This document shows positions 10,090-27,303 of a stretch of DNA of 32,977 bases, piece after piece. Numbering within the stretch: the stretch's first letter is position 1; every line of letters begins with the position of its first letter. The DNA is from Candidatus Iainarchaeum sp. (GTDB lineage: Archaea > Iainarchaeota > Iainarchaeia > JAADDC01), in assembly GCA_030445695.1 (NCBI GenBank), contig JASUTF010000007.1:1-32977 (forward strand). Reading direction: 5' to 3'. The notes beneath the pieces were generated by a model. The model saw nothing but the letters and a program-made list of their open reading frames with translations. It searched no databases and was not told the origin of the DNA. A program made the translations under genes and the position numbers.

Positions 10090-10109
10090 TTTTTATTAAC
10101 AATTGTTAA
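10090..10109 (+). promoter_or_regulatory. Promoter and operator of the Cys-rich regulator-sufS unit
   Basis: The TATA-like TTTTTATTAA (10090-10099) is centred 26 bases before the GTG at 10121. Overlapping its end is the perfect 14-base palindrome TTAACAATTGTTAA (10096-10109). The same repeat recurs before the nifX-like gene and sufC. Its placement between TATA box and start would block transcription when bound, suggesting autoregulation. Confidence 0.7.
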
Positions 10110-10120
10110 ACCTTGTTACT

Positions 10121-10447
10121 GTGAAGAACCCGAAGACGCCGTGCGAAGTCATATTCTGGCAGATCCTCCCGGCGGTAAGGCGAGAGTTAGCAAGGGAACT
10201 CGTCAAAAGAGGGTTAAAGCAAAGGGAAGTGGCAGAGATGCTCGGGCTGACACCGGCCGCGCTGACGCAATACTTGAAGGGCAAGAGGGGAAAGACCGAA
10301 CTGCCAGAGTGGATAAAGGAGAAAATCCGTGATTACGCTGGAAGAGCAGATTGCATAAACCTGTGCGACGTGTGTACGGATATCCGTAAAGACAAACGGT
10401 TTGTTGAAACGTTCCTGAAGACAAAAGGGGGGTGTATGAGTGCGTAA
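10121..10447 (+). CDS. Cys-rich HTH regulator, likely Fe-S sensor of the local suf genes
   Basis: 108 aa from GTG 10121; the TATA box 26 bases upstream sets this start, while the longer frame from TTG 10103 would run through the operator. Residues ~31-53 form an XRE-type helix-turn-helix (GLKQREVAEMLGLTPAALTQ). Cysteines lie at C8 and in a C-terminal set C78-x3-C82-x2-C85 plus C105, enough to hold an iron-sulfur cluster or a metal. The form matches the archaeal predicted XRE regulators I recall as COG2522. Its coding end overlaps the sufS start. The palindrome at its own promoter recurs before nifX-like and sufC, so I infer it senses Fe-S status and controls these genes, an archaeal counterpart of IscR or SufR. 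Direct evidence for cluster binding is lacking. Confidence 0.8.
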   Translation: MKNPKTPCEVIFWQILPAVRRELARELVKRGLKQREVAEMLGLTPAALTQYLKGKRGKTELPEWIKEKIRDYAGRADCINLCDVCTDIRKDKRFVETFLKTKGGCMSA

Positions 10448-11630
10448 CGTGAAGGACGACTTTCCCATACTCAAGAACAGGGATATCGTGTATCTGGACA
10501 ACGCGGCCACCACGCAGAAGCCAAAAAGTGTTATTGAAGCAATCAAGGAGTTCTACGAGTATCACAACGCGAACATACATCGTGGAATCTACCCGCTGGC
10601 CCGAGAGGCAACGGAGATGTACGAAGGGGCCCACGAAAGAGTTGCAAAGTTCATCGGCGGGAAGATGGAGGAAACTGTGTTCGTCCGTAACGCGTCGGAG
10701 GGACTGAACCTTGCGGCGTGGATTCTGAAGGACAGGATAGGGAAAGGTGACAAAATCATAACAACCATGTCAGAACACCACAGCAACTTCCTGCCCTGGT
10801 TCAAGATAGCGAGGATGAGGGGCGCGAGGGTCGATGTTATCCCCACGAAGGAGGACGGCTCGATAGATGAGGAAAAAATAATCGAAGCCATTGACTCAAG
10901 GACGAAAATCGTGGCGGTTCAGCACGCGTCCAACGTGACGGGGTACATAACGGACGTGAAGGAGATAGCAAGAGCCGCCCACGATAACGGCGCAGTCATC
11001 GTGGTGGACGGAGCCCAGAGCGTCCCGCACATACCCATAGACGTGAAAAAGCTGGGAATAGATGCTCTTGCCTTCTCCGCTCACAAGATGCTCGGACCGA
11101 CGGGAATAGGCGCGCTCTGGATGAAGGCGGACCTTCTCGAAGAGGGAGAGCCGTTCCTTGAAGGGGGAGACATGATAAAGGAGGTCCACTACAACAGTGA
11201 ATTACAGGTCATTTACAACGACCTGCCGTGGAAGTACGAGGCAGGGACGCCGAACATCGCCGGTGGTGTGGGATTCGCCGCGGCAGTGGACTATTTAGAA
11301 CGTTACGGCATGGAGAACATCCTGCCACACGAACAGAAACTGGCGAAGCGTATAATGAATGGCCTCGAGGAAATGGGCGTTCCCTTCGTCGGGCCGAGGG
11401 ATATAAAGAGAAGGGGCGGCGTGGTGGCGTTCAGCGTGCCAGGAAAGAACCCGTACACCGTTGCCCTCTACCTGGGAACGAAGAACGTGTGCGTCCGTGC
11501 AGGTTACCACTGCGCGCAGCCACTTCACGAATCTTTAGGTATTAAAGGAACCGTGCGCGCATCGCTATACATATACAACGACGAAGAGGACGTTGAAAAG
11601 TTCCTGGAGGCGCTGGAGGGGATGCCATGA
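10440..11630 (+). CDS. sufS: Cysteine desulfurase, SufS type
   Basis: 396 aa, full length for group II (SufS/CsdA) desulfurases, which remove sulfur from cysteine with PLP for Fe-S assembly. The N-terminal YLDNAATTQKP block, the SEHHSN motif (111-116), VDGAQSVPH (189-197), the PLP lysine in SAHKMLGPTGIG (K216) and the catalytic loop RAGYHCAQPLH (C358) are all present. The loop is short, as in SufS rather than IscS. The start GTG at 10440 overlaps the regulator's stop by 8 bases, after a GGGGGGTG ribosome site. The TusA-like gene follows with an ATGA overlap. Confidence 0.95.
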   Translation: MRNVKDDFPILKNRDIVYLDNAATTQKPKSVIEAIKEFYEYHNANIHRGIYPLAREATEMYEGAHERVAKFIGGKMEETVFVRNASEGLNLAAWILKDRIGKGDKIITTMSEHHSNFLPWFKIARMRGARVDVIPTKEDGSIDEEKIIEAIDSRTKIVAVQHASNVTGYITDVKEIARAAHDNGAVIVVDGAQSVPHIPIDVKKLGIDALAFSAHKMLGPTGIGALWMKADLLEEGEPFLEGGDMIKEVHYNSELQVIYNDLPWKYEAGTPNIAGGVGFAAAVDYLERYGMENILPHEQKLAKRIMNGLEEMGVPFVGPRDIKRRGGVVAFSVPGKNPYTVALYLGTKNVCVRAGYHCAQPLHESLGIKGTVRASLYIYNDEEDVEKFLEALEGMP

Positions 11631-11851
11631 AGACATACGACCTGAGGAACGCGGGGGAGGGCTGTATCGACAACCCTGCGTTAGCACTATTAGACGTGTT
11701 CGCGAAGAGGGATAGGGAATTGCAAGTAATCGTAAAGGCGGAGGACATCCCCCTTGAAGTGCTCAGGGACGTGGCGAGGAGTTGCGGCTACGAAGTAAAG
11801 AGCAGCAGGGAAGAAGACGGTTTACTGGTGGCGGTGCTGGTGCGCAGTTAA
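11627..11851 (+). CDS. TusA-like small sulfur carrier candidate
   Basis: 74 aa. The N-terminal YDLRNAGEGCIDNPALALLDV lines up with the TusA/SirA start (DLRGxxCPxPxL), keeping the Cys (C13) and a downstream Pro but replacing the CPxP core. The rest has the expected beta-alpha-beta pattern with a VKAEDIPLEVLRDVARSCGYEV segment like the TusA D-P-x-x-x-x-I region. It overlaps the sufS stop by ATGA and so is probably the acceptor of the persulfide made by SufS. The family call is tentative because of the changed motif. Its stop codon lies inside the operator at 11848-11860. Confidence 0.55.
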   Translation: MKTYDLRNAGEGCIDNPALALLDVFAKRDRELQVIVKAEDIPLEVLRDVARSCGYEVKSSREEDGLLVAVLVRS

Positions 11852-11870
11852 CAATGTTAAACCGTTTAAA
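11848..11870 (+). promoter_or_regulatory. Operator and TATA box of the nifX-like operon
   Basis: TTAACAATGTTAA (11848-11860) is the same inverted repeat as at the regulator and sufC promoters. Five bases on is TTTAAA (11865-11870), centred 26 bases before the ATG at 11894. Here the repeat lies upstream of the TATA box, over the BRE position, so the effect of binding could differ from the other two sites. Confidence 0.7.
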
Positions 11871-11893: not shown

Positions 11894-12313
11894 ATGAAGG
11901 TAGCAATCACTGCAATGGGTCCGGGCTTGAACGCGGCGTTCTCTCCGGTGTTTGGGCGTGCTCCATACTTCGTTATTGTTGAAGTCGATGGAGGTAACGT
12001 TTCAGAGATAAAGAGCATTCCCAACCCTGCAGCACAGGCGGCACGCTCTGCGGGAATAATAGCAGCACAGACACTCGTCAGCGAGGGAGTTTCCGCAGTC
12101 ATATCCGGGTCGATAGGGCCTAACGCGCACATGGTCCTCTCGCAGGCAGGCATAGGCATGTACTCCTGCGGGGGTGCAACGGTCTTAGACGTGGCAAGGG
12201 CTTTCGCTCAGAACGCGTGCACCCCAATTACAGCGCCTGGCAGATACGGACCAGGGTACGGCAGAGGTAGAGGATGGGGCCGCGGAGGCGGCTGGGGGCG
12301 AGGGCCATGGTAG
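11894..12313 (+). CDS. NifX/NafY-like cofactor-binding protein
   Basis: 139 aa. The first ~110 residues are the dinitrogenase iron-molybdenum cofactor (Nitro_FeMo-Co) domain: MKVAIT start, SPVFGRAPYFVIVEVDGG, AGIIAAQTLVSEGVSAVISG and GIGMYSCGGATV with one Cys. This compact fold (as in MTH1175) binds metal clusters in transit. A Gly/Arg/Trp-rich tail of about 30 residues (GRGRGWGRGGGWGRG) is added. No nitrogenase gene is seen, so a general metal or Fe-S carrier role is more likely. Leaderless start by the TATA spacing. The stop overlaps the next gene's start. Confidence 0.88.
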   Translation: MKVAITAMGPGLNAAFSPVFGRAPYFVIVEVDGGNVSEIKSIPNPAAQAARSAGIIAAQTLVSEGVSAVISGSIGPNAHMVLSQAGIGMYSCGGATVLDVARAFAQNACTPITAPGRYGPGYGRGRGWGRGGGWGRGPW

Positions 12314-13524
12314 ACATTGAGCACGGAGAGAGAACGGCACAGAGGGCAACCATACTCGTAGCGCTCCTTGCAACGCTGAAGGGAATCGTTGGATTCGTCA
12401 CGAACTCAGCAGCAATGCTCGCCGACGCACTCCACTCCACAGTAGACGTCATGACCGCAGCGGCGACGTGGATTGGCCTTAAAATTGCGAGAAGACCGGC
12501 GGACCAGAAATTCCCCTACGGATACTACCGCGCAGAGTCGCTGGTGGCACTCCTCGTGGCTGGCATCGTCCTCTGGGGCTCCGTGGAACTGTTCCTGGAT
12601 GGAGTGCATCGCATACAGCATCCGGAACTGGTTGAAATGCCATGGCTTGCGGCGGGCATGGCACTCATAGCATCTGTAACGTCATACTATATTTCCAAAA
12701 TGGAGAAAGAGGCCGCGGAAGTGTCCAACTCTCAAGCACTCAAGGCAGTGTCCGTGGAATCCTTGGCTGACACGCTATCGTCCCTCGTAGTGTTCCTGGC
12801 CATCGTTGCCGGCTCGTATCTCCACGTGCCCTGGGCTGAAGGCGTCGGTGCGCTCCTGGTAGCCGCGTGGGTCTTCAAGATCGGAGCAGAGATGCTGTGG
12901 AACGCGGTTCTATCCCTCATGGACGTGGCACCGGAAGATGTCGAAAAGGAAGTAGAAGAGATTCTGAGGCACGTGGACGAAATTACTGGATACAAAGACC
13001 TGCGACTAAGGCGTTCCGGACCAGTGGTGTTCGGCGAGGTGATTGTATTCATTCCAGCGGACGTGCCAGTGGCCAAGGCGGACGAGATTGCCCGAAGAGT
13101 CCAGGAGTACATCCTAACGGTTCCAGAAATTGAGGACTTCCGCGTCTACGTGGAGAGGGAAGAGCCCAGGAAAAAGAAAGTTATAATCCCGGTAACGGAG
13201 GATGGGAAAGTAGCAGGAACCTTCGCAACGGCACCGAAGTTCGCAGTGTTCGTGGCAGACAGCGGGATAAGGAAAGAGAAAGAGATTGAGAACATAGCGA
13301 GAAAGAGAAAGGTCCGTCGCGGCCTAGCGGCGGCCAAACTCGTGCTGGAGGAAAAGCCGTATGCCGTAATCGTGAAGAACATCGGGGAGATATCATACCA
13401 CACGCTCAAGGACGCTTTAGTAACAATACACAGAACAACAGCGGAAGAACCTGAAGAAGCGGTGAAAGAGTTCCTCGAAGGAAAAACAGAGGAACTACAC
13501 GCACCGACGGTGAAAAAGGAATGA
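12307..13524 (+). CDS. CDF cation efflux transporter fused to a NifX-like domain
   Basis: 405 aa from ATG 12307, which overlaps the nifX-like stop. Six TM segments (about 11-32, 35-57, 76-97, 110-130, 147-172, 175-192) form a cation diffusion facilitator. TM2 has D40, H43 and D47 (ADALHSTVD) and TM5 has E151 and D155, marking the metal site; compared with FieF from memory, the TM2 Asp and the TM5 His appear as H43 and E151. Residues ~205-285 are the cytoplasmic metal-sensing domain. Residues ~290-385 add a NifX-type domain (KVIIPVTEDGKVAGTFATAP...AVFVADSG). I infer transport of iron or another divalent metal tied to the soluble NifX-like protein and the MinD-ferredoxin pair that follow. The stop overlaps the next gene as ATGA. 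Confidence 0.88.
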   Translation: MVDIEHGERTAQRATILVALLATLKGIVGFVTNSAAMLADALHSTVDVMTAAATWIGLKIARRPADQKFPYGYYRAESLVALLVAGIVLWGSVELFLDGVHRIQHPELVEMPWLAAGMALIASVTSYYISKMEKEAAEVSNSQALKAVSVESLADTLSSLVVFLAIVAGSYLHVPWAEGVGALLVAAWVFKIGAEMLWNAVLSLMDVAPEDVEKEVEEILRHVDEITGYKDLRLRRSGPVVFGEVIVFIPADVPVAKADEIARRVQEYILTVPEIEDFRVYVEREEPRKKKVIIPVTEDGKVAGTFATAPKFAVFVADSGIRKEKEIENIARKRKVRRGLAAAKLVLEEKPYAVIVKNIGEISYHTLKDALVTIHRTTAEEPEEAVKEFLEGKTEELHAPTVKKE

Positions 13525-14315
13525 TTATCGCAGTAACGGGAGGAAAAGGAGGCACAGGGAAGACCACCGTAGCCCTTTCGCTTGCACTGACGTGGAGGAA
13601 GCCCGTAACGTACATAGACGCTGACGTGGAAACCCCCAACGCGGCCATTCTCCTTGGAACAGAGATGGAAAGAATCGGGGCGGCGTACAAGAGCATTCCC
13701 GTCATAGACGAGGAGAAGTGCATCAAATGCGGACTGTGTGCACATGCCTGCCCCGTTGCAGCTCTTGTCTTCATTCCCGGAAAGGTGCCCCTGTTCATAG
13801 AGGAGAACTGCGTCGGCTGCATGCTCTGCAAGGACGTCTGCCCGGTGGGAGCAATAAGAGAGGAAAAGAAGGAGATTGGAATTATACGCGAGGGGGAACA
13901 CGAACACATCACGCTCTACGATGGATTGCTTGACCCAACGGAAGAGGAAGCAGCCCCACTCGTTGAAGAGCTACTGAGGAGAGCATTGAACGACGCGAAG
14001 GGAGACGTGATTATCGACACAGCAGCGGGAATCCACTGCAACGTTGCAAGGGCGATAATGCCTGCGGATAAAGTAATCATCGTGACAGAACCGACGCCCT
14101 ACGGTGTTCACGACCTGGAGAAGATAGTAAAACTGGTGGAAACGCTGGAGAAGCCGTATGAAATCTACGCAAACAAGTGGGGGATTAACGGGGCATGCCA
14201 GAAAAGGATAGAGGAAATAGCGAGGGAAAAGGGCGTAAAACTTACAAAAATACAGTTCAGCGAGGATTTTGCCCGTAAATACGCAAAAGGGGCGTTCGAA
14301 CCGGTGATTCAATGA
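13521..14315 (+). CDS. MinD-type ATPase with inserted two-cluster ferredoxin domain
   Basis: 264 aa. A deviant Walker A KGGTGKTT (9-16) and the DADVETPN switch region are followed by an inserted ferredoxin with C67-x2-C70-x2-C73-x3-C77P and C97-x2-C100-x2-C103-x3-C107P, enough for two [4Fe-4S] clusters. Later VIIDTAAG and the VTEPTPYGVHD region complete the MinD/Mrp fold. This is the family of MinD-like ATPases with inserted ferredoxin (COG1149 from memory), often next to NifX-like genes. The likely job is ATP-driven transfer or assembly of iron-sulfur or related cofactors. It forms a pair with the next gene (ATGA overlap). Confidence 0.9.
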   Translation: MIIAVTGGKGGTGKTTVALSLALTWRKPVTYIDADVETPNAAILLGTEMERIGAAYKSIPVIDEEKCIKCGLCAHACPVAALVFIPGKVPLFIEENCVGCMLCKDVCPVGAIREEKKEIGIIREGEHEHITLYDGLLDPTEEEAAPLVEELLRRALNDAKGDVIIDTAAGIHCNVARAIMPADKVIIVTEPTPYGVHDLEKIVKLVETLEKPYEIYANKWGINGACQKRIEEIAREKGVKLTKIQFSEDFARKYAKGAFEPVIQ

Positions 14316-15133
14316 TCATAACGGTTGCTTCAGGAAAGGGGGGCGCTGGAAAGACAACGGTAACCGCAAGCATAGCGCATGTGCTCCCAAAGGACAAAAC
14401 ATACCTCTTAGACGCGGACGTGGACACGCCGAACCTGGCGCTGGCCCTTGGACTGGAAAAGCCAGAGAAAAAAGAGGAGTGGTGGGGCGGAGTCGTCTCA
14501 GAGTTTGTAGGGAACGAACCGCACCCAGAAGCATGTCCATTTGGTGCAATAGGACTGGACGGAACAGTCAACGAACTACTGTGCGAGGGCTGCGGTGCCT
14601 GTGCGAAGAGATTCCCTGAATCGTACCGGCTGAAGAACGTCCACACCGCGGACATCCTCTGGTATTCCTGGAACGGTGTCCCCCTGCTGACCGCAGAACT
14701 GATGCCGGGACGTTCAGGTTCGGGGAAGATAGTGACGGAACTGCGTATGAGAGCGGAGAAGGAGATGGCAGAAAAGGGAAGAGACGTTCTGTTAATTGAT
14801 GCGGCCGCAGGCAGGGGCTGTCCGGTGATTGCATCGCTGAGGGGGAGTGACTATGCCATCATTGTGGTGGACAACACACCAACGGGTATTGAGGATGCTC
14901 TACAGGTGTTGAACGTTGTAGAGCATTTCAGCATACCCTTCGGCTACGTAATAAACCGGGCGGACATAGTGCCAGAGAGAGTGGAAAAGATTGAGGAGAT
15001 TTTTGGAAAACGGAGGGGAGGAGAAAAACTGGGGGAGATTCCATACATTCAGGACGTTCTAAAGACGTATCCGCCCCCCTTCGAGCGTGTTCTGGAGTAC
15101 ATCAACGTGGAAGAGATTCTGAAAAAGATTTAA
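14312..15133 (+). CDS. MinD-type ATPase with reduced one-cluster ferredoxin insert
   Basis: 273 aa. Walker A KGGAGKTT (9-16) and DADVDTPN (34-41) match its upstream partner. The ferredoxin insert keeps only C75 (CPFGAI) and C91-x2-C94-x2-C97, while the other four Cys are gone (KRFPE replaces the usual CP). In two-cluster ferredoxins one cluster uses the first three Cys of one motif and the last Cys of the other, so exactly the ligands of one [4Fe-4S] cluster remain. LLIDAAAGRG and VVDNTPTGIED complete the ATPase. It probably acts as a heterodimer with the preceding protein. It converges on sufD with a 32-base overlap. Confidence 0.88.
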   Translation: MIITVASGKGGAGKTTVTASIAHVLPKDKTYLLDADVDTPNLALALGLEKPEKKEEWWGGVVSEFVGNEPHPEACPFGAIGLDGTVNELLCEGCGACAKRFPESYRLKNVHTADILWYSWNGVPLLTAELMPGRSGSGKIVTELRMRAEKEMAEKGRDVLLIDAAAGRGCPVIASLRGSDYAIIVVDNTPTGIEDALQVLNVVEHFSIPFGYVINRADIVPERVEKIEEIFGKRRGGEKLGEIPYIQDVLKTYPPPFERVLEYINVEEILKKI

Positions 15134-16124
15134 TCGCAGAAATCACTCGTTCATCGGAAGCGAGATTGCCCACATACTGCTCTATAAGTTTCTCGACGTA
15201 AACAGATAGTGCTTCGGATGCAGGCAGCCCACGGGTCTGGAGATATAATATCTGCTCGTCGGACAGGGATAAATCACGGGAACGGTGAGACGCACGGATA
15301 ACATTGTCCGTCAGGACTTCGAGCATGGGGGCAGAAACTGCAAGCCCGCCCGTGGTGTAAAAGGCGGAATCCATGTCCGCGTCTGTGCCCGATGAAGTAC
15401 GGGCAACACGGATGGCTCCACGGTGCACGACAAAATCATCTGGGGCAGAAAAAACGGCGTGAGCGATGCGTATCACGTTGTCATTGCCGCTAACAAAGGC
15501 GTTCGTAATTAGGTCGCTCCTACCGCGAATGGATGCACCAGAGTATGATACGCGAGAGCCGGAACCGTTCAGGAAGAATTCGTGGTGAACATGAGTGTTA
15601 ATTCCTAAAACAGCAGAGTTCACGGACAGTTCAGACGAATCGCCAAGGTGGTAACGGATGTGCAAATACTGGGAGTGCTGACCGGAGATAAAGACGGAGA
15701 GATTGACGTGAGCGCCGGGACGAACGAGCATGTCGAGGGTAGCGGATTTCGGGCCGGTAGAAGCAAGGTCCTCAATGTGCACGTTCCTATCCCCGTCCAG
15801 GCAGAAGAGAACGTGTTGAAGTGCCAAGGAATTCCTCTCCGACTCAAGGATAATTGTATCGGAGTCGGCAACGAACGCTCCGGGAAGGTGAGAGAAGTGG
15901 TATGCGAGCATCCTGTTCTCTTCAGGTTGGAAGGAGAATGACGTAAGTTTGTCCGTTGCCGTGGCGCCGGATACTTTTCCGGATGATGCGGGAAGAGAAA
16001 AGGCGTTTTCAAATGCGGACCAGTCCGTGTAACTCTTTACAGTGGGGGAGTCACCGTAGGGCTGGAATGACGTCTTCGGTAGTGCTTTTTTGGCCCGTTC
16101 GCGAATCTTTTCAATCGAAATCAT
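15102..16124 (-). CDS. sufD: Fe-S assembly scaffold subunit SufD
   Basis: 340 aa, short for SufD (bacterial proteins are above 400). The SufBD beta-helix core runs from about residue 85 to 275, and the family C-terminus is clear: ASHRSRDLSLSDEQILYLQTRGL with H280 corresponding to the His next to the conserved 'DEQ-x-x-YL-x-(S/T)RG' block. It has no Cys equivalent to the SufB scaffold Cys. The ATG at 16124 overlaps the stop of sufB by four bases. It is the last gene of sufCBD, and its end overlaps the convergent ATPase by 32 bases. Confidence 0.9.
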   Translation of the reverse strand: MISIEKIRERAKKALPKTSFQPYGDSPTVKSYTDWSAFENAFSLPASSGKVSGATATDKLTSFSFQPEENRMLAYHFSHLPGAFVADSDTIILESERNSLALQHVLFCLDGDRNVHIEDLASTGPKSATLDMLVRPGAHVNLSVFISGQHSQYLHIRYHLGDSSELSVNSAVLGINTHVHHEFFLNGSGSRVSYSGASIRGRSDLITNAFVSGNDNVIRIAHAVFSAPDDFVVHRGAIRVARTSSGTDADMDSAFYTTGGLAVSAPMLEVLTDNVIRASHRSRDLSLSDEQILYLQTRGLPASEALSVYVEKLIEQYVGNLASDERVISAIKSFSESLPR

Positions 16125-17437
16125 CCCACACCACCGGAGAAGTCAGCGTTCAGCACCTCGCGGAGAACAGAGGCGTATTCTAACGGTAAACCACGGAGGA
16201 TATCCTGGATGAAACCGAGGACGGCAAGACCCTTCGCCTCTTCCTCGTTCAAACCGCGGGACTGTAAATAGAATAATTGGTCCTCGGAGAAACGCACGGT
16301 GGTCGCCTCGTGGGTGAACACCGCAGTTGGCTCGTCCACCTGGGCGTGTGGATAAGTAGACGCCTCGCTCTCGCCGTCAAGGATGAGTGAATCACAGGAA
16401 ACGTGGGAGAACGCGTTCTTCGCACCCTTCAAAATGCGAACAAGCCCGCGGTAAATGTTCACGCCGCCATCAGACGATACGCTCTTTGACACTACAGTGC
16501 TCCTCGTGTTGGGAGCCACGTGGAATATCTTTGCCCCGCCGTCCTTCACGTAGGGCCCGTGGGAAAGAGAAAACACGTTCATCGTCGTTCTCGCTCCCTC
16601 GCCGCGAAGGACAACGGAGGGGTAGACGATGGACGTCTTCGCGCCTATGCTTCCTTCCACCCATTCCACAAAGGCGTTCCTCTCCGCAATGGCCCTTTTG
16701 TTGTTGAAGTTGATGATGTTCTTGCTCCAGTTCTGCACAGTGGTGAACTTCACATAAGCGTTTTCCGCTGCGTAAATCTCAACAGCACCGTCATGGAAGG
16801 AAAATTTTCTGAACCGCGGGGCAGAACAACCCTCAATGAAATGAACCTCCGATCCCCTGTCCGCAACGATTAACGTATGCTCGAACTGTCCCTCAAGCTC
16901 CGTGGATATGTAGAAGAACGCCTCAATGGGGAGATCCAGTTTCACGCCTGGGGGGACGTAGAGGAAAACACCGCCGGACCAGAGGGCGTAGTGAAGGGCC
17001 GAGTACTTGTGCTCGGCAGGGGGAAATATGCGGGAGAAGTACTTGCGCACCAGATCGGGATAGTTAAGAACCGCGTCGTGCATGGGTTCCAGAATCACGC
17101 CTTTCTCGCGGAGAGGTTCGAGAACCCTTGAGTATATTGTCTCGCTGTCCAATGACGTTGAAAGGCCCGCGAGGTACTCCTTTTCATACTCCGGAAGGTT
17201 GAGACGCTCGTAAAGCCGGCGAATATCTTCAGGAAGTTCCTCCCAAGACGTGGCGGGCCTCACCCCGGGATCCTTGTAGAGAATTAGGTCTTCCACGTTG
17301 AGCCCTTCCACCCCGTGGATCCATTTGGGCTCGGGCAGACGGTTGTAAAGTTCCAAAGCGTTCAGACGTATCTTCAGCATCCAGTCCGGCTCGTTGTGCG
17401 CCTCGGATATCTCGCGAACAATGGAAGGGTCAATCAT
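16121..17437 (-). CDS. sufB: Fe-S assembly scaffold subunit SufB
   Basis: 438 aa, near the usual length. Family landmarks: ALHYALWSGGVFLYVPPGVKL (147-167), HFIEGCSAP (199-207, C204), the beta-helix with NWSKNIINFNNKRA (236-249), SSDGGVNIYRGLVRI (321-335), SHVSCDSLILD (344-354, C348, equal to the conserved scaffold Cys in CDSLLI of bacterial SufB) and TYPHAQVDE in place of the usual TYP-(H/Y)-I. The C-terminal EDQLFYLQSRGL block is intact. SufB with SufD and the ATPase SufC builds Fe-S clusters from sulfur given by SufS. Starts 8 bases inside the end of sufC. Confidence 0.95.
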   Translation of the reverse strand: MIDPSIVREISEAHNEPDWMLKIRLNALELYNRLPEPKWIHGVEGLNVEDLILYKDPGVRPATSWEELPEDIRRLYERLNLPEYEKEYLAGLSTSLDSETIYSRVLEPLREKGVILEPMHDAVLNYPDLVRKYFSRIFPPAEHKYSALHYALWSGGVFLYVPPGVKLDLPIEAFFYISTELEGQFEHTLIVADRGSEVHFIEGCSAPRFRKFSFHDGAVEIYAAENAYVKFTTVQNWSKNIINFNNKRAIAERNAFVEWVEGSIGAKTSIVYPSVVLRGEGARTTMNVFSLSHGPYVKDGGAKIFHVAPNTRSTVVSKSVSSDGGVNIYRGLVRILKGAKNAFSHVSCDSLILDGESEASTYPHAQVDEPTAVFTHEATTVRFSEDQLFYLQSRGLNEEEAKGLAVLGFIQDILRGLPLEYASVLREVLNADFSGGVG

Positions 17438-18134
17438 AGAACCCCGCCTTCAGCACGTCCTCAAGGACTTCTGGGCCGCCGGAGCGTTCAATCCTGCCAT
17501 CCCTGAGCACATAAACACGATTCGGCGAGATCATCTGCAGTAGAGCTGGATTGTGGGAAACAAGGAGCACGCCCTTTTCCGCGGATACGAGATCGTTAAT
17601 GATTGCCGCGATTTGCTTCAGGCCGTCCACATCCACTCCGCTGTCAATCTCGTCGAGCAGAACATATTTTTTGTTAAGAAATAATGCTTGGAGAAGCTCG
17701 GAACGCTTCTTCTCACCGCCGGAGAAGCCCTTGTTCAGCGGACGGGAGATGTAGGACGGGTCAAGGCCAACGCGGGAAGCGGCCTGCACCAGTTCAGAAA
17801 ACGCTTTGGGGTCACGCTCCCTCCCGGCGGCTCGGAGGAGAACGGTGGCGAGAGTGACACCGTCAAACTCCGGCGGGGTCTGGAAAGCCAGGAACAGGCC
17901 CTTCCTTGCCCGTTCGTCTGGAGGGAGACGCGTTATATCCTCACCGTCCAGAAGGATCCGGCCAGAAACCACTTTGTATCTCGGGTCGCCCGCGATTGTT
18001 CTGAGGAGGGACGACTTGCCGGAACCGTTGGGCCCCACGAGAACCACAAGCTCGCCGGGGCTCAAAAGCAGGTCAATGTCATGAATAACGTCCTTTTCGT
18101 CGACACGGACGGAAAGGTTCTCCACCTCGAGCAC
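17430..18134 (-). CDS. sufC: Fe-S assembly ATPase SufC
   Basis: 234 aa ABC-type ATPase without TM segments. Walker A GPNGSGKSS (34-42), Q-loop AFQTPPEF (83-90), signature FSGGEKKRSE (137-146) with the KKR form typical of SufC, Walker B YVLLDEIDSGVD (157-168), and H-loop VSHN. It powers the SufBCD scaffold. The GTG at 18134 is set by a TATA box 26 bases upstream and an operator lying three bases before it. First gene of the sufCBD unit. Confidence 0.95.
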   Translation of the reverse strand: MLEVENLSVRVDEKDVIHDIDLLLSPGELVVLVGPNGSGKSSLLRTIAGDPRYKVVSGRILLDGEDITRLPPDERARKGLFLAFQTPPEFDGVTLATVLLRAAGRERDPKAFSELVQAASRVGLDPSYISRPLNKGFSGGEKKRSELLQALFLNKKYVLLDEIDSGVDVDGLKQIAAIINDLVSAEKGVLLVSHNPALLQMISPNRVYVLRDGRIERSGGPEVLEDVLKAGFYD

Positions 18135-18779: not shown

Positions 18780-19109
18780 GTGCTGGTAAACCGCACGAAG
18801 AACAAAATTCTCACAGAACGCGTAGATGTTGCCCACGACTTCTTCTCCCGCGCGTGGGGGCTCATGTTCCGGAAGAAATACGATGGAGCAATGGTGTTTC
18901 CCCACGTTGGTAAAACATCCTTCCACGGATTCTTCTGCTTCTTCCCCATCCTCCTCGTCTGCCTGGATGAACAGAACCGCGTCAAGGAAGCGAAAATACT
19001 GAAACCGTGGTCCGTCGTCTCCGTAAACTGCGAAACGGTGATAGAGCTGGACGCCAGAAAGGAATGGGATATAGAAAAGGGGGACGAGCTGGTCTGGGAT
19101 GAAGGTTGA
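18780..19109 (+). CDS. DUF192 family protein
   Basis: 109 aa from GTG 18780, or 117 aa from ATG 18756. The later start is preferred because the TATA box at 18751-18756 is 26 bases away and the family normally begins with an N-x-T-K strand like VNRTKNKIL. The rest matches DUF192: FFSRAWGLMFRK (about 24-35), a MVFPHVGK...HGFFCFFPILLVCLDEQNRV segment and a C-terminal WDIEKGDEL turn. The family is a small beta-barrel of unknown function, often exported elsewhere, but no signal peptide is seen here. It overlaps the ferredoxin-ATPase gene by 11 bases, so the two are cotranslated. Confidence 0.8.
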   Translation: MLVNRTKNKILTERVDVAHDFFSRAWGLMFRKKYDGAMVFPHVGKTSFHGFFCFFPILLVCLDEQNRVKEAKILKPWSVVSVNCETVIELDARKEWDIEKGDELVWDEG

Positions 19110-20613
19110 GGCAAGGGCAGATCTTTCGTCTGTCTGTCCCTACGAGCTGAAAGAGTCGAAGTGCGTGCACTGCAACCCTGAAGAGGCGCCCTGCGTTGTT
19201 GCCTGCCCGAAGGATGCAATATACGAGGTGGCAGACGGCGTTCTGGCCATTGATTATGATAAATGCGATGGCTGCGGCGAATGCGTGAAGGCCTGCCCCC
19301 ACGGTGCCATTGTCCTGAAAGAGGGAAAGGCGTTCAAGTGCGATCTATGCCTGTCGCTTTTTGATGAGCCGCAGTGTGTCCTTGCAGGGCTGGCAGGGAT
19401 CAAATACACGAGAAAGGAGCTGGAGGAGATATGGGAGACGCTGGGCTGGGCGTTCTTCGAGGACGGGGAGTATAAAGTGGATCTCCCGGAGATACGGCTG
19501 TGGGAGGCGCGGCTGCTCGGAGAGGTCGTCAGCAGATACATGAAGCTGCGCGGGGAGTTCTCGTGGGACGAAGTACTTGAGGGGCTCGAGTACGAGCAGG
19601 GAGAAATCCCAGAGGCGTCAAAGGAGCGTATTATGTGGTGGATAAGGAAAACCTATGAGGGCTATGGGCCGCTGGAGTTCCTCAACGGTCCGGAGATAGA
19701 AGAGATCGCGGTGGTGCGGCTCAGAGAGCCCATACGCATATACGTGAGGGGAGAGGGCTGGAAGACCACAAATCTTGCATTCTGGACGGAGGAGTACTTC
19801 AACGCGGTTGTAAACAGATTCGCAGCGTCCGTGGGCAGGAGAATAACGCTCAAAAACCCGAGAGTGAACGCCATCCTTCCTGACGGCTCACGTCTCCACG
19901 CGGTTGTGCCTCCCCTCTCTTCCGGACACGCCCTCACCATAAGAAGATTCACCGTGCGACGCTTCACACCGTGGGACCTCATAGAGAGGGGGACCGCAAC
20001 GCCGGAACAGCTCGCCCAGATATGGTATGCCATGGACGAGGAGAAGAACGTGATAATAGCTGGCAACACGGGATCCGGAAAGACCACAACACTGAATGCG
20101 GTTCTTTCCTTCGTCCCCATAAACGAGAGGATCGTGCTGGTGGAGGAAACGCCAGAGATAGAAATCCCGCATCCCCACAGCGTCCGTCTTGTCCCCACAG
20201 AAGACGTAAGTATGCAGGAACTCGTATACGACACGCTACGAATGAGGCCGGACCGCATTGTCGTGGGCGAGGTCAGAAGACCGGAGGAGATGCGCGCACT
20301 CTTTGACACCATGCTCGCGGGGCAGGGAAAGGGATCATACGCCACCATGCACGGCAGGACGGCGGAAGAGGCGATGCGGCGCATAAGAAGCATGGGTATC
20401 CCGGAGGAGGACCTGATCGCTCTGGATCTCTTAGTGGTGCAGAGGAGACGAGGAAGGGGCAGCATGGAGGAGCGTAAGATTATAGACGTGTTCTGGCCCA
20501 AGGGAGACACCCCTCCGGAAGAGGAAATCAAATGGAGGGCAGAGGCGCTTACGGAGATCAAGGAGCGGGATCTGAGGGCATACGCGGAGGCGGTGGAGCG
20601 GTGGCGTCGCTGA
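19099..20613 (+). CDS. Secretion ATPase (TadA/CpaF-type) with N-terminal 12-Cys ferredoxin-like domain
   Basis: 504 aa. Residues 1-95 hold 12 or 13 Cys: C13; C22-x2-C25-x6-C32-x3-C36P; C56-x2-C59-x2-C62-x3-C66P; and C81-x2-C84-x8-C93. This resembles HycB/CooF-type multi-cluster ferredoxins. Residues ~140-500 form a type II/IV secretion ATPase: N-domain with RRITLKNPRVNAILPDGSRL, Walker A GNTGSGKTT (322-330), Asp box VLVEETPE (346-353), Walker B RIVVGEVR (386-393) and His box SYATMHGRT (413-421). It would drive assembly or secretion by the two TadC-like proteins encoded next. The ferredoxin part is unusual; I cannot say whether it senses redox state or carries electrons. The start overlaps DUF192 by 11 bases. 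Confidence 0.9.
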   Translation: MKVEARADLSSVCPYELKESKCVHCNPEEAPCVVACPKDAIYEVADGVLAIDYDKCDGCGECVKACPHGAIVLKEGKAFKCDLCLSLFDEPQCVLAGLAGIKYTRKELEEIWETLGWAFFEDGEYKVDLPEIRLWEARLLGEVVSRYMKLRGEFSWDEVLEGLEYEQGEIPEASKERIMWWIRKTYEGYGPLEFLNGPEIEEIAVVRLREPIRIYVRGEGWKTTNLAFWTEEYFNAVVNRFAASVGRRITLKNPRVNAILPDGSRLHAVVPPLSSGHALTIRRFTVRRFTPWDLIERGTATPEQLAQIWYAMDEEKNVIIAGNTGSGKTTTLNAVLSFVPINERIVLVEETPEIEIPHPHSVRLVPTEDVSMQELVYDTLRMRPDRIVVGEVRRPEEMRALFDTMLAGQGKGSYATMHGRTAEEAMRRIRSMGIPEEDLIALDLLVVQRRRGRGSMEERKIIDVFWPKGDTPPEEEIKWRAEALTEIKERDLRAYAEAVERWRR

Positions 20614-22856: not shown

Positions 22857-23222
22857 ATGATCGTGATAACTTGCATAAAGCCGGAGACGCTGCGACGGAT
22901 ACTCCAGAGAGGAGAGGCCACGCTGGAGCTCACGTCCCACCAGAACGTCTCGGCGGCGGAAGAGCTGCGCCCGGGGGACATCGTGTTCCTTGCCCGTGAA
23001 AACGAGGAGGACCTTCGCAGGGGAGTCGAAGGCATCGTTGTACGTGTCGAGAGGGTAAACGTGGACTACGTGAGGACCGACTCACCGCACGAGGACGAGT
23101 GGGAAAAGAAGAGGGCAAGGATCCGTGTCAGCTTCATAAAAACGGCGAAGGTCAACCAGGTGGCAAGGGGAAGGGTACTTACAGCAAACGTGGACACAAC
23201 GGATCACTTCGTTATCGGATGA
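22857..23222 (+). CDS. DUF473-like protein
   Basis: 121 aa from ATG 22857; a longer frame upstream is a shadow inside the PAC2 gene. The pattern ITCIKPETLRRIL, ELTSHQNVSAAEEL-x-PGDIVFL, EGIVVRVERVNVDYVRTDS and an ARIRVSF segment matches DUF473, a family I know from methanogens and related archaea with no assigned function. No catalytic residues are obvious; it looks like a beta-barrel. The stop overlaps the convergent 1363-aa gene by 11 bases. Confidence 0.65.
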   Translation: MIVITCIKPETLRRILQRGEATLELTSHQNVSAAEELRPGDIVFLARENEEDLRRGVEGIVVRVERVNVDYVRTDSPHEDEWEKKRARIRVSFIKTAKVNQVARGRVLTANVDTTDHFVIG

Positions 23223-26200
23223 TGGAAAATACCGCTGCAAGCATCATGATGAGTAGCACCGTTTCTCCGGGTTCCATGAGGGGTAATGAAAGGCCCTGCG
23301 AACGCGAACTAAGGTATGGGTTCGGCCTGAAGCTCCACGGGGCTGGAGTTGCAACAGCATTTCCACTGGCGTCCAGGGAAATCCTTATGCCATTCTTGAA
23401 CGCCTCCGCAATGGGTGTAAGGAGCCCGGCCACGAAGGACCACTCCCCTGTGTCAGGATCGTAGGTCACGAACCCCCTCGGGCCCTGCATGGCCTGAACG
23501 ATGCCCTTGAGCAGGCCGTCCACCAGCAACTGCGGCAGACCGTTCTGATCCACCTTCACCTGAATGGTGTGCGTCCCCTTGTCCGTCTTCACCACAAGGG
23601 CCCCCGTGTTCGGGTCCTGGTACATGTCGAGGACGCGCTCCTGCTCCACGGCACCGGGAACAACCACCGGGCCGTAGACCACACCGTCCAGGAGGGCAAC
23701 GATGATGCCGTCCTGCTCACTCACAGATACCACGTGTTCGCCCTCCTCCGTGCGGAGGAGGTAGCCGTTGACGTCCTCCGAGTAGCTCTGCACCATCAGC
23801 TCCCTGCGCTGGCCCGTTGTCCTGTCGACGTAGGAAAGAATCACCGATCCCCCATCCCTATATACCCTGAGGGAACCGTCGAGCACCTCGAAAGTATCGT
23901 ACTTCCCGTCGCCCTCAAGCACGGAACGGAGGATTTCATACGCCTGCTCCACGGTGAGGGATGCCATGGCATTCCTGTCAAAGATCCTCAGCCAGAGCAC
24001 GCCGTTCTCATCCCTGAACAGTGCAATGGCAGCGTCTTCAGAGAGTATGGAGTTTATTCCGCCCATTTCCTTTATCAACCTATTCAAACGGTCAATCTGT
24101 TCCCTGACGTCATCGGGCGCGTTGGCAGTGGGGGTGAAGGTGACGTTTATGCCGTTCTTCTCGTCGTTGGGGCCCATGCTGATGGACTTCACGTAGTTTC
24201 CGGGGAAGTGAACGAGCCGCCTGATATGGACAAGAAGCTTCCCATCGCTGTAGTAGATGGCCCCGTTCTCAAATATTATTGACTGTAACCTGCCGATGTC
24301 CTTTTCGGACGAGTCCAGATCTACGTTCAGCGTGTTGCCCTCCGCATTGATCTCAAACGTGGAGGCGGTAACTGTAACGTTGTAGTCCGATCCCACCTCT
24401 GCACGTGAGACGTAGGCACTCCAGTCCTGCGTCGCGGCGACGACCCTGTCTCCGAAGTCCACGGTGCCCCTGTCCGTGTTGATAACGATGATGTCTCCCA
24501 TTATGGACCTGAAGAACTCCGTTGTGGGCTCTCCTCCAGGAATCTTTGACGCAAAACACTGCAGAAACGAAGAGTCCTTTACAACGTAGCCGTCAGGTGT
24601 CGCCACGAATGCGGGATTCTCGGTGAACGCGGAGACGATCACCCACGCGGGAACAACGATGCCGGGAACCCTGTTGTCAACGTAGGAGAGCCGCACGAGA
24701 TCCGGATTCGCTATCACGGTCGTTCCGTCAATAGTTACGCTGCCGTTCACCTTGTCAAATAGCGCCTTCCTCCCGTCACTGGATTCGCCGGATATGCTAC
24801 CGTCACTCGATACTGCATTCTGAACGATCTCCCTGGGCTTTGTCCAGAGTTCAATGAGCTTTGCCGGGAAGAACTCCGCATGGGGCACACCGTCTGCATG
24901 GAACTGGACATACGCTCCCGAGTTCCTTATGCTCTCTGCAAGCGCCCTCTGCTTGAAAGCATTGATCTCAGCTGCTAGTTCCTCCGAAACGCCGCCCAAA
25001 ACGCTCGAGGCCGTGTCCAGAATGGATGTAAGGGCATCGTTAGCGGTTAATTCAAAAATCTGCTGTGAGTCCTCCTGTGGCGGGACACGGATGTGTAAAT
25101 AGTACCCCCCCTTCGTGTCCACGCACTCGCCGCAGTCCTTCATGAGCAGCATGGTGGCTGCGCCCGAAACCACCACTCCCGGGGCGCCCGCAACCGCGGA
25201 CATGCTCTGCAGGTACGAGAGGATAAAAACGGCAGAGGCAGGGTTGTCCCCGAATATCTTGCGGGCAAACTCGTTGCTTACAAGCGGACAGGTATCGTAG
25301 CAACTCTTCCCCTCGCGCTCCGCCTCGGGAATGTCAATCTCCGTGCCGTCCCCCATTCTGAAGTTCGTGTGGTGGCCGAAGAGGATGGCCGTTGCCCCTT
25401 CACTCAATGCATTCGCGTCCTCCACCACGGATCCGAGGAACGGGGTGCTCTCCGGCCCGTGGAGCGTCATGCGACCGTCCCCGAACGTGAGCACACAGGC
25501 GGGGCAGTCCTGAGTGGAAAAGCCCGCTGAGAAAATGGCCGGCCCCATCTCGTACTTTTTCGTGTGCTCCTCCGTTAGTATAATGCCACCCGTGGGTATC
25601 TCCCTCCCCAGCATCTCGGAAATGGCCTTGTGAATGAGTGCTCCACCTGATAGGGAGATGAGGGACTTGAACGCGTCGCCGGGGTCGGAACCGTTGTTAA
25701 TGAGGACGTCCACGAAGGAGTCACGGTAACCGCCCTCCTCGGGGGGATAAACAAGGGTAATCCTCCACGATTCGGGGAGGGGAAGCCCCTCCCCCAGCAG
25801 TCCGCTGAAGAAAGGCACATGGTATGCCCCGGTCGCCACAAAGGGGTTCTCGTGCGGGGCCATGGCAAGACGCTTGACAATGTAAAACGCGAGCGGCGTC
25901 ACTGTATACTCGGCGGCAGCAGTGGTCCACCCGCCCTTGACGTTCTCGGCAACCACCTCGTTTATCTTGGAGGAAATTGTGGTGACCACGGGTACCTGGT
26001 CCGCCAGGTGCCCCGTGAGGCGGTGAGCGTTCTCCTTTGCATACTTTAACTTCGTAGCAAGATCGTCAAGGTCATAATATCCCAACAACCCGTGAAGTTG
26101 ATCCGGCGTTGCCTTGGATATGGTATCTAAGAACGTTGAAAGCGGCACCGTCTTATATCCCTTCTCAGAAGGAACTCGAACAACAAGATCTGCATCGGTA

Positions 26201-27303
26201 TATCCCACCTTCTTCAGTGCCTCCTGTAATGCCCCAAAGGACTCCTTCAGCTTCTTGGTATCTATTTTTGAACAGTATTCACTCTTCTGGGCGCAGAGCA
26301 TAAGCGTGTCAATGTTCTTAACTACAGAGTCGCCCGTCTCGTCCAGATACGCTGCCCACATGGCTATCTTCTGCTTGTCAGACACGGGAAGGTCGTCAAC
26401 ACGGGACGGGCTGAAGTTGGGATCCAGAATCCCGCCGATGCCCATCTCCGGGCCGCCCTTCAACGCCACCTTTGCCCCGTCCGTGGTCTTGGCTATGTCG
26501 TCCAGTATGGAGTCCTTCACCTTGGAGACGGGGCCAGTTACCTTGCGCTTCAGAACCGTGGCCTTCTGGTATATCTTCCTCTTTGCGGAAGACGGCACGA
26601 AATTCCTCCAGACGTAGCCCCCACCCATCTCGACGATCATCTGGGCAGACGCCCCGACGTTGATATACTTGGTGAACAGGGAATACATCTCCTGGTCGCA
26701 GCCGTTGGAAGCACAGGTGGCCGTAACGCTGAAGTCCCGCGTGAGCACGACGTTCTTTATCCTCGGTCCCCCGGTGGCGTTCATACTGGCGAGCCGAACA
26801 AGGGCTTCCAGCTCCGTTTTTGCCGTGTTTAGAACTGCCTCCAATGCCTCCCGCGAAGTCCCGTACTCCATCCGGCCTTCAAAACGCTGCTGTAGTCCCT
26901 TATCATTCCCGTAGCCGATTTCCGAGTCCTTTGATATACGGAGAGTGTCGTCCAGAACGCTTACGAAGAAAACAGGGCCGATTATCGTTGTCCCCTCAGG
27001 GAAGAAATCCCCCTTGCGGAGATCCATGGCCCTGCTACCGTTGAAGTCCACGGGGTAATACGTGCCAGAGGCCTCGTCGATGACAGCCGTGCTTCCCCTG
27101 TTTATGGGAGAAACAGGTGGTCTCTCCGCAGGTCCGAAGCTATCGAGGGTTAGCACGCCGTTCTGCGAGTAGACCGCCTGAAGGAATCGCAGGTAATCCT
27201 TCGGACTGACCTGCTCGACGGAACACGTCTGTGCGTGGACCGCCGGGATCAGTAGAAGAGCTGCAAGTACCGCTCCAAGGACCAAGGGAACACGGCCACC
27301 CAT
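23212..27303 (-). CDS. Giant exported protein (1363 aa) of unknown function
   Basis: A signal peptide (MGGRVPLVLGAVLAALLLIP, residues 1-20, cleavage near VHA-Q25) is followed by a very long ectodomain and a C-terminal TM (about 1338-1360, TVLLIMMLAAVFSII). Residues 1-640 are mainly helical and Lys-rich. The middle has several Cys pairs (CPAC, CYDTCP, CGECVD). The last 450 residues are beta-rich with repeated short strand-turn units ending in DGxL-x-V, which suggests a propeller- or beta-helix-like domain. I recognise no family. The ATG at 27303 follows a GGTGATG site and lies 55 bases inside the end of the small membrane-protein gene, so both are on one transcript. Its position beside pilin-like genes suggests a surface or secretion role. 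Confidence 0.75.
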   Translation of the reverse strand: MGGRVPLVLGAVLAALLLIPAVHAQTCSVEQVSPKDYLRFLQAVYSQNGVLTLDSFGPAERPPVSPINRGSTAVIDEASGTYYPVDFNGSRAMDLRKGDFFPEGTTIIGPVFFVSVLDDTLRISKDSEIGYGNDKGLQQRFEGRMEYGTSREALEAVLNTAKTELEALVRLASMNATGGPRIKNVVLTRDFSVTATCASNGCDQEMYSLFTKYINVGASAQMIVEMGGGYVWRNFVPSSAKRKIYQKATVLKRKVTGPVSKVKDSILDDIAKTTDGAKVALKGGPEMGIGGILDPNFSPSRVDDLPVSDKQKIAMWAAYLDETGDSVVKNIDTLMLCAQKSEYCSKIDTKKLKESFGALQEALKKVGYTDADLVVRVPSEKGYKTVPLSTFLDTISKATPDQLHGLLGYYDLDDLATKLKYAKENAHRLTGHLADQVPVVTTISSKINEVVAENVKGGWTTAAAEYTVTPLAFYIVKRLAMAPHENPFVATGAYHVPFFSGLLGEGLPLPESWRITLVYPPEEGGYRDSFVDVLINNGSDPGDAFKSLISLSGGALIHKAISEMLGREIPTGGIILTEEHTKKYEMGPAIFSAGFSTQDCPACVLTFGDGRMTLHGPESTPFLGSVVEDANALSEGATAILFGHHTNFRMGDGTEIDIPEAEREGKSCYDTCPLVSNEFARKIFGDNPASAVFILSYLQSMSAVAGAPGVVVSGAATMLLMKDCGECVDTKGGYYLHIRVPPQEDSQQIFELTANDALTSILDTASSVLGGVSEELAAEINAFKQRALAESIRNSGAYVQFHADGVPHAEFFPAKLIELWTKPREIVQNAVSSDGSISGESSDGRKALFDKVNGSVTIDGTTVIANPDLVRLSYVDNRVPGIVVPAWVIVSAFTENPAFVATPDGYVVKDSSFLQCFASKIPGGEPTTEFFRSIMGDIIVINTDRGTVDFGDRVVAATQDWSAYVSRAEVGSDYNVTVTASTFEINAEGNTLNVDLDSSEKDIGRLQSIIFENGAIYYSDGKLLVHIRRLVHFPGNYVKSISMGPNDEKNGINVTFTPTANAPDDVREQIDRLNRLIKEMGGINSILSEDAAIALFRDENGVLWLRIFDRNAMASLTVEQAYEILRSVLEGDGKYDTFEVLDGSLRVYRDGGSVILSYVDRTTGQRRELMVQSYSEDVNGYLLRTEEGEHVVSVSEQDGIIVALLDGVVYGPVVVPGAVEQERVLDMYQDPNTGALVVKTDKGTHTIQVKVDQNGLPQLLVDGLLKGIVQAMQGPRGFVTYDPDTGEWSFVAGLLTPIAEAFKNGIRISLDASGNAVATPAPWSFRPNPYLSSRSQGLSLPLMEPGETVLLIMMLAAVFSIIR

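Follow-up and report, generated by a model that had tools for sequence, protein, structure and literature searches.

How iron and sulfur are stored, and iron-sulfur (Fe–S) clusters delivered, without ISC carriers is an open field in strict anaerobes, above all in DPANN archaea and Patescibacteria with reduced genomes. A locus of Candidatus Iainarchaeum sp. puts this question in concrete form. The window analysed here is a whole contig of 32,977 bases (JASUTF010000007.1) from a 664-kb metagenome-assembled genome (MAG) that is 88.6% complete, and at 11894-15133 it carries four plus-strand genes in series with successive overlaps of 7, 4 and 4 bp. They encode a free PF02579 protein, a cation diffusion facilitator (CDF) transporter to whose C terminus a second PF02579 domain is joined, and two MinD-type ATPases (MinD1 and MinD2). 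An earlier sequence-only reading had described this arrangement as a free NifX-fold domain, a CDF-NifX fusion and two ATPases, and open reading frame (ORF) calls and domain searches agree with it. In this genome the set and the suf operons have one operator that is exclusive to them, and the linkage of the genes recurs in other lineages. We propose that the four genes form an iron-sulfur storage and trafficking module of the SUF regulon with a store-linked metal exporter, a function to which we give about an even chance. Within this proposal, Fe–S trafficking is on firmer ground than storage of thioferrate, and the identity of the metal moved by the CDF is the weakest point. What is known of such a set is the ORP/IssA-type module; the CDF and the SUF control are added here.

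One operator for the gene set and suf

The palindrome TTAACA-N(1-2)-TGTTAA occurs at exactly three sites in the whole 664-kb genome, all on suf-related promoters (Table 1). From base composition about 0.03 matches to TTAACAN{1,2}TGTTAA are expected by chance, and the reversed control pattern gave none. Among relatives (G, genomes; C, contigs; L, loci), the operator before sufC is retained in six (G002, G005, G006, G007, G008, G009), that before regulator-sufS also in G007, and that before the PF02579 gene in two, namely G002, where the gene is orthologous, and G001:C24, while it is degenerate in G003. The case for a common operator with suf is therefore stronger than the sequence-only reading had claimed. 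In G001, which is of the same genus, the operator also precedes a PF01883 (SufT/MIP18-type) Fe–S assembly gene (L096:1501-1874). Further copies were seen in same-genus genomes, at C95:4013 and 6329, C19 and C122 of G003 and on C40 and C48 of G001. Another palindrome, TTAAACNGTTTAA at 11857, was dropped as an operator, being a single site that 44% of shuffles equalled.

The XRE-type protein encoded before sufS is the sole match of its kind in the genome and carries Cys at positions 8, 78, 82, 85 and 105, i.e. near both ends. Its orthologues precede sufS in G005-G008; in G005, G007 and G008 a palindrome resembling the operator is also present. Cys-bearing regulators of this type, with a conserved palindrome, were noted before sufS at L112, L113, L114 and L117. 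This Cys-bearing protein is likely to be the common regulator of the set and suf; it would bind the operator and may sense Fe–S.

The free PF02579 protein resembles IssA

The best solved relative of the free PF02579 protein is MTH1175 (1eo1, E 6.7e-24), followed by 1rdu and the orange protein ORP (2wfb); nitrogenase NifX or NafY was not among its solved-structure matches. MTH1175 falls within the IssA clade, whose long-tailed members are marked by W, G and R repeats (PMC5524996). The protein has a full-length pI of 9.8 and ends in a tail (Table 1) whose chemistry is maintained among orthologues while the sequence varies. Since MTH1175 is the nearest solved relative and the tail is cationic and rich in W, G and R, IssA-like is the better name, and going by best match the thioferrate-storing IssA clade seems a closer fit for the protein than nitrogenase NifX. 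Of the former NifX label, the PF02579/NifX fold stood, and the affiliation probably lies with IssA. IssA stores Fe–S as thioferrate and rebuilds the [4Fe-4S] cluster of ferredoxin in vitro (PMC5524996), and IssA homologues increase in Methanococcus voltae grown on pyrite (PMC8516115).

The genome has two copies of PF02579, both at this locus. In agreement with the earlier statement that nitrogenase is lacking, the alpha/beta family PF00148 was not found in the 88.6% complete genome, and a role in nitrogenase maturation (NifX/NafY) was rejected for this reason. A NifX-type Cys cluster site was likewise rejected: the CDF is without Cys, and C92 and C109 of the free protein are not kept in G003. 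In four other loci (L074, L079, L081, L085) the IssA-like gene is followed by a second short PF02579 gene with a product ending in ..CSPG.GKGYGI.KEDGHGE that includes a conserved Cys; this type is absent from the genome of the window.

MinD1 and MinD2 differ in their ferredoxin inserts

The insert of MinD1 has eight Cys (C67, C70, C73, C77, C97, C100, C103, C107), all of which are kept in every relative of the MinD1 alignment (A1). Only C75, C91, C94 and C97 are left in MinD2 of the window's genus, whereas most other families have eight. In 2[4Fe-4S] ferredoxins each cluster is held by three Cys of one motif and a fourth from the other. By this scheme the MinD2 insert should have one complete [4Fe-4S] site, the other site lacking all four ligands. 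Because exactly one full ligand set remains, this points to the coordinated loss of one cluster and not to decay, a pattern that a functional insert with a single cluster should show. The ferredoxin inserts ascribed to both ATPases are thus full in MinD1 and half in MinD2, with four Cys for one putative cluster. No CxxC is present outside the inserts, the other Cys being C173 and C226 of MinD1 and C170 of MinD2, and the C-terminal CxxC of Mrp/NBP35 was not found in either protein.

The CDF transporter carries its own PF02579 domain

We placed the start of the CDF fusion at the in-frame ATG at 12307, which gives the 7-bp overlap; the mechanical ORF begins at 12274. Its Cation_efflux (3e-46), ZT_dimer (5e-10) and PF02579 (1e-7) domains each score above the curated cut-off. 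The AlphaFold model has a mean pLDDT of 85.9 (~79-91 in the last domain), and in Foldseek searches one and the same chain matched YiiP with its membrane part (E 5e-14) and the NifX-fold structure 2re2 with its last domain (TM-score 0.87 by target length, rmsd 1.9).

The protein has the Cation_efflux fold with an A-site quartet on transmembrane helices TM2 and TM5, as is typical of the family. H43, D47, E151 and D155 align with D45, D49, H153 and D157 of FieF (PDB alignments agree), and D40 is an additional, invariant Asp. The residue numbers given before were correct, as was the difference from FieF: the A-site is HD-ED here and DD-HD there. The DxxxD of Mn-CDFs in TM5 was also not found, the genus having ExxxD and only the relatives L127 and G080 DxxxD. 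In clade A, to which the window's CDF belongs, the TM5 His position is always acidic (HD-ED, DD-ED, HD-EH, HD-DD, DD-DD); the fused clade B of Diapherotrites families f10 and f13 has HD-HD.

The PF02579 domains of clade A carry [IVL]GE[IV][SA][FY][HN][TV][LI][RK] in the place of the GPNA-type turn that is usual in free proteins. Among the 80 loci described below, each of the six fused CDFs of clade A has this motif; GE-x-FH was absent from all 96 free NifX ORFs. Being basic and free of Cys, the CDF domain would be consistent with non-covalent binding of anionic species.

On a tree, CDFs near the module separate into the two fused clades, A and B, and a third clade whose C terminus resembles a Cys4 ribbon (100/99 support). 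The PF02579-fused label has to change twice on this tree, which may mean two separate fusion events, or a single gain of the domain together with one replacement (loss). In CDFs beside the module from Patescibacteria, Pacearchaeota and Diapherotrites, a ribbon CPKCGY..H.RG.PC..CP.C replaces the C-terminal PF02579 (L143, L161, L171, L182, L184, L196; G028, G083). We found no literature on a CDF-PF02579 fusion.

Recurrence of the set

Linkage was surveyed in 80 loci, picked by MinD1 similarity alone (MinD1 alignment search) and spread over many phyla of both archaea and bacteria; a single-sequence CDF search of the genome contigs gave no match. MinD1 and MinD2 lie within 2.5 kb of each other in 59 of the 80 loci and a PF02579 neighbour is present in 65, a CDF in 14 and a CDF carrying PF02579 in 7, all of these counts being lower bounds, as many loci end at contig edges. 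From these numbers we regard PF02579 and the MinD pair as the core and the CDF as an optional partner. The co-occurrence of all four genes, suggested earlier as a check, was confirmed, and the lack of linkage elsewhere that would have refuted the earlier reading was not observed: all four are found no more than a few kb apart in the Diapherotrites genomes G000 (that of the window), G002, G003, G029, G030, G052, G058 and G080, which include other families, more loosely on one contig (~10-12 kb) in G021, G023 and G044, and also beyond Diapherotrites in Aenigmatarchaeota, Woesearchaeota and others (L126, L127, L134, L154, L188). A PF02579 gene and a MinD1-MinD2 pair are also found in a named strain, Malonomonas rubra DSM 5091 (L187), a possible experimental system.

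Neighbourhood of the locus

The regulator, SufS and a small TusA-like gene lie upstream of the set; SufD, SufB and SufC follow downstream in convergent orientation (Table 1). The MinD pair is convergent with sufDBC in 4/4 genus members that hold the pair (G000-G003), and relatives of the TusA-like gene come after sufS in G007 and G008.

Table 1. Genes, operators and protein segments at the locus (positions refer to the window)
Feature	Position	Strand	Basis or detail
Free PF02579 protein, IssA-like, 139 aa	11894..12313	+	PF02579 E=1e-20, 74.2 bits
Gly/Arg/aromatic cationic tail of IssA-like protein, PITAPGRYGPGYGRGRGWGRGGGWGRGPW	12224..12310	+	W/G/R-rich, pI 11.8, 29 residues
CDF transporter with C-terminal PF02579 domain, 405 aa, no Cys	12307..13524	+	Family searches, AlphaFold, Foldseek
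Span with CDF A-site HD-ED	12433..12771	+	H43 12433-12435, D47 12445-12447, E151 12757-12759, D155 12769-12771
CDF PF02579 domain, residues 299-390, with KNIGEISYHTLK and basic stretch RKRKVRR	13201..13476	+	32.6 bits, cut-off 26.3
MinD1, MinD-type ATPase, complete 2[4Fe-4S] ferredoxin insert	13521..14315	+	CbiA and Fer4
MinD2, MinD-type ATPase, half ferredoxin insert	14312..15133	+	CbiA; Fer4 below cut-off
Operator TTAACAATTGTTAA, spacer 2, before regulator-sufS-tusA-like operon	10096..10109		Genome-wide pattern search
Operator TTAACAATGTTAA before four-gene set	11848..11860		Genome-wide pattern search
Operator TTAACACTGTTAA (minus-strand reading), 3 bp from sufC GTG start codon	18138..18150		Genome-wide pattern search
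XRE-type helix-turn-helix regulator, 108 aa, GTG start	10121..10447	+	HTH_3 E=2.6e-7
SufS-type cysteine desulfurase	10440..11630	+	TIGR01979 474.8 bits (cut-off 475.1), Aminotran_5 E=8.5e-135
Small TusA-like protein, 74 aa	11627..11851	+	By reading only; family searches gave no match
SufD, convergent to set, 3' end overlapping MinD2	15102..16124	-	SUFBD_core E=1.6e-14; best NCBIfam sufD 2.3e-16
SufB	16121..17437	-	SUFBD_core E=1.3e-73
SufC ATPase	17430..18134	-	ABC_tran E=2.7e-23

Elsewhere in the window (19099-20613, +) a T2SSE ATPase (TadA/FlaI-like, type II/IV secretion) has an N-terminal ferredoxin-type Cys domain and is followed by two T2SSF genes, an arrangement kept in G002 (L061:3039-4613). 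An Fe–S domain on a pilus or secretion motor looks unusual. For a 1363-aa protein at 23212-27303 (-) the Pfam search gave no match.

Proposed function and alternative explanations

The earlier interpretation is borne out in the linkage, the operator common to the set and suf, the lack of nitrogenase and the deviation from the FieF A-site; the movement of iron or a metal cofactor between the membrane and Fe–S carriers that it suggested is conjectural. We propose that the IssA-like protein would nucleate and hold anionic, thioferrate-like Fe–S species by means of its cationic Gly/Arg/aromatic tail. Its partner would be an ATP-driven heterodimer of MinD1 and MinD2 with [4Fe-4S] clusters numbering three in total (2+1); this pair may load, unload or reduce the store, hand clusters onward and fill the niche of Nbp35/ApbC. 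CDFs transport metal from the cytoplasm outwards, which makes an inward delivery from the membrane unlikely; the transporter would export excess divalent metal, with Fe2+ as the favoured guess. Its PF02579 domain may sense or dock the same Fe–S species at the membrane, so that efflux would be tied to the state of the store, and the XRE regulator would control the set together with suf.

Several points weigh against this proposal. The roles of all four proteins are deduced from sequence. Thioferrate is known only for IssA of Pyrococcus furiosus with its 70-residue tail, compared to ~29 residues here, and the IssA-clade membership is suggested by best-match evidence. ORP, which shares the fold, has a Mo-Cu sulfide as its ligand and not Fe–S (PMC6345978). 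With a CDF in only 14 of the 80 related loci the transporter is optional, and the co-regulation of an exporter with Fe–S assembly is not self-evident. The A-site does not identify Fe: HD-ED is already present in CDF clade 8, to which Zn and also other metals are assigned, and both the A-site residues and the CDF clades show a poor correlation with the metal (PMC5703985), for which reason we rejected any metal assignment from the quartet. That the whole genome of the window gave no FeoB_C match and no CxxC-bearing Mrp/Nbp35 among its ParA matches speaks for the proposal, but with the MAG at 88.6% completeness the gene for FeoB or Nbp35 may lie in the part not recovered.

One alternative is a detoxifying exporter. 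Fe–S assembly is poisoned by metals that compete with iron, and the CDF might remove these (Zn, Co, Cd, Ni, Mn), the set being a stress arm of SUF in which PF02579 only regulates the transporter. The clade 8 quartet (PMC5703985) would be in line with this, as would the acidic residue that Mn-CDFs have at the TM5 His position (DxxxD; PMC1868760), comparable to E151. Co-regulation with suf suits a metal-stress response, and as the transporter is the only CDF of the genome, it may have a general role. However, the occurrence of the CDF beside an IssA-like neighbour, and fused to that neighbour's domain, in two CDF clades is left unexplained, and we consider this explanation unlikely, if serious. 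The module could also handle, rather than Fe–S alone, a sulfide of mixed metals like the Mo-Cu cluster in the orange protein of Desulfovibrio. The gene logic, with paired ferredoxin-type ATPases and a PF02579 protein, is that of the orp cluster; ORP (2wfb) is the third-best solved relative of the free protein; Orp8 homologues carry a non-covalent S2MoS2CuS2MoS2 cluster (PMC6345978), and the Cys-free, basic PF02579 domains would suit anionic clusters bound in this way. Nevertheless, the SUF operator and the IssA-like tail favour Fe–S and MTH1175 is closer than ORP, which makes this explanation quite improbable.

A role of the MinD pair in positioning or cell division, as first proposed for the ORP complex, with metal handling as a secondary function, finds support in the MinD fold, in the connection of orp operons to septum positioning (PMC3897727) and in the polar location of MrpORP (PMC6345978). 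Yet the pair is tightly co-regulated with suf, its Cys ligands are conserved in two states, and a separate MinD-like member of the ParA family, encoded on C24, could serve division; we therefore rate this role as very improbable. Hardly any weight is given to a delivery set for the cofactor of a specific enzyme. In ANME-2a, C5S33_05750-05780 comprise a CDF, two 4Fe-4S proteins, a dinitrogenase-type protein and a P-loop NTPase, a neighbourhood similar by description that was read as an F430 shuttle linked to MCR (PMC12622379). An F430-specific role is unlikely as the general function of the set, because its carriers, many DPANN archaea and Patescibacteria, include groups not known as methanogens.

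The storage and trafficking module that we favour also allows a more specific version, which is speculative and in our view rather improbable. In a membrane-coupled Fe–S mineral store, the MinD1/MinD2 heterodimer would donate electrons in an ATP-driven, NifH-like manner to ferric thioferrate on the IssA-like protein, and this reduction would free Fe and S for SufBCD. The CDF would read the same polymer through its PF02579 domain and open metal efflux once the store is filled, with a single Fe–S-sensing XRE regulator of archaeal SUF in control of the whole.

The set is a concrete candidate for the storage and movement of iron and sulfur in such cells. The locus ties the widespread group of PF02579 and paired MinD-ferredoxin proteins to SUF via a clean genome-wide operator and adds, through domain fusion, a transporter partner to this group. 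It also provides a candidate archaeal SUF regulator with a defined palindromic operator, and features that can be tested specifically, i.e. the one-cluster insert of MinD2 and the GEI[SA][FY]H motif and HD-ED A-site of the CDF.

Comparison with known systems

The transporter shares with FieF/YiiP and other CDFs the six transmembrane helices, the A-site geometry and the ZT_dimer domain. It differs from FieF/YiiP in having HD-ED instead of DD-HD, replaced site-B histidines (D-F-Y), an additional C-terminal PF02579 domain and no Cys. Like the Mrp/NBP35/ApbC carriers, MinD1 and MinD2 are MinD-type ATPases with a deviant Walker A motif and a predicted association with Fe–S clusters; in contrast to these carriers, the predicted clusters reside in a ferredoxin insert and not at a C-terminal bridging CxxC. 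IssA of P. furiosus (PF2025; PMC5524996) likewise consists of a PF02579/IPR003731 domain and a Gly-, Arg- and aromatic-rich cationic tail, but this tail has 70 residues compared to ~29 here, where the gene is grouped with a MinD pair and a CDF.

The ORP complex of Desulfovibrio contains the paired ferredoxin-type proteins Orp3 and Orp4 together with Orp8, which has the fold of the free protein, and MrpORP gives Fe–S clusters to Orp3/Orp4 (PMC6345978). As described, this complex has no CDF and its genes are under sigma54 control, whereas the set studied here is co-regulated with suf, has a one-cluster insert in MinD2 and lacks an Mrp-PF02579 fusion, the genome having only two PF02579 copies; Orp5 was not seen. 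In common with the ORP complex of D. vulgaris (Orp3, Orp4, Orp5, Orp8, MrpORP; PMC6345978), two tandem ferredoxin-type partners adjoin a single-domain PF02579 protein, and in both systems PF02579 is also fused to another partner, to Mrp in the ORP complex and to the CDF transporter here.

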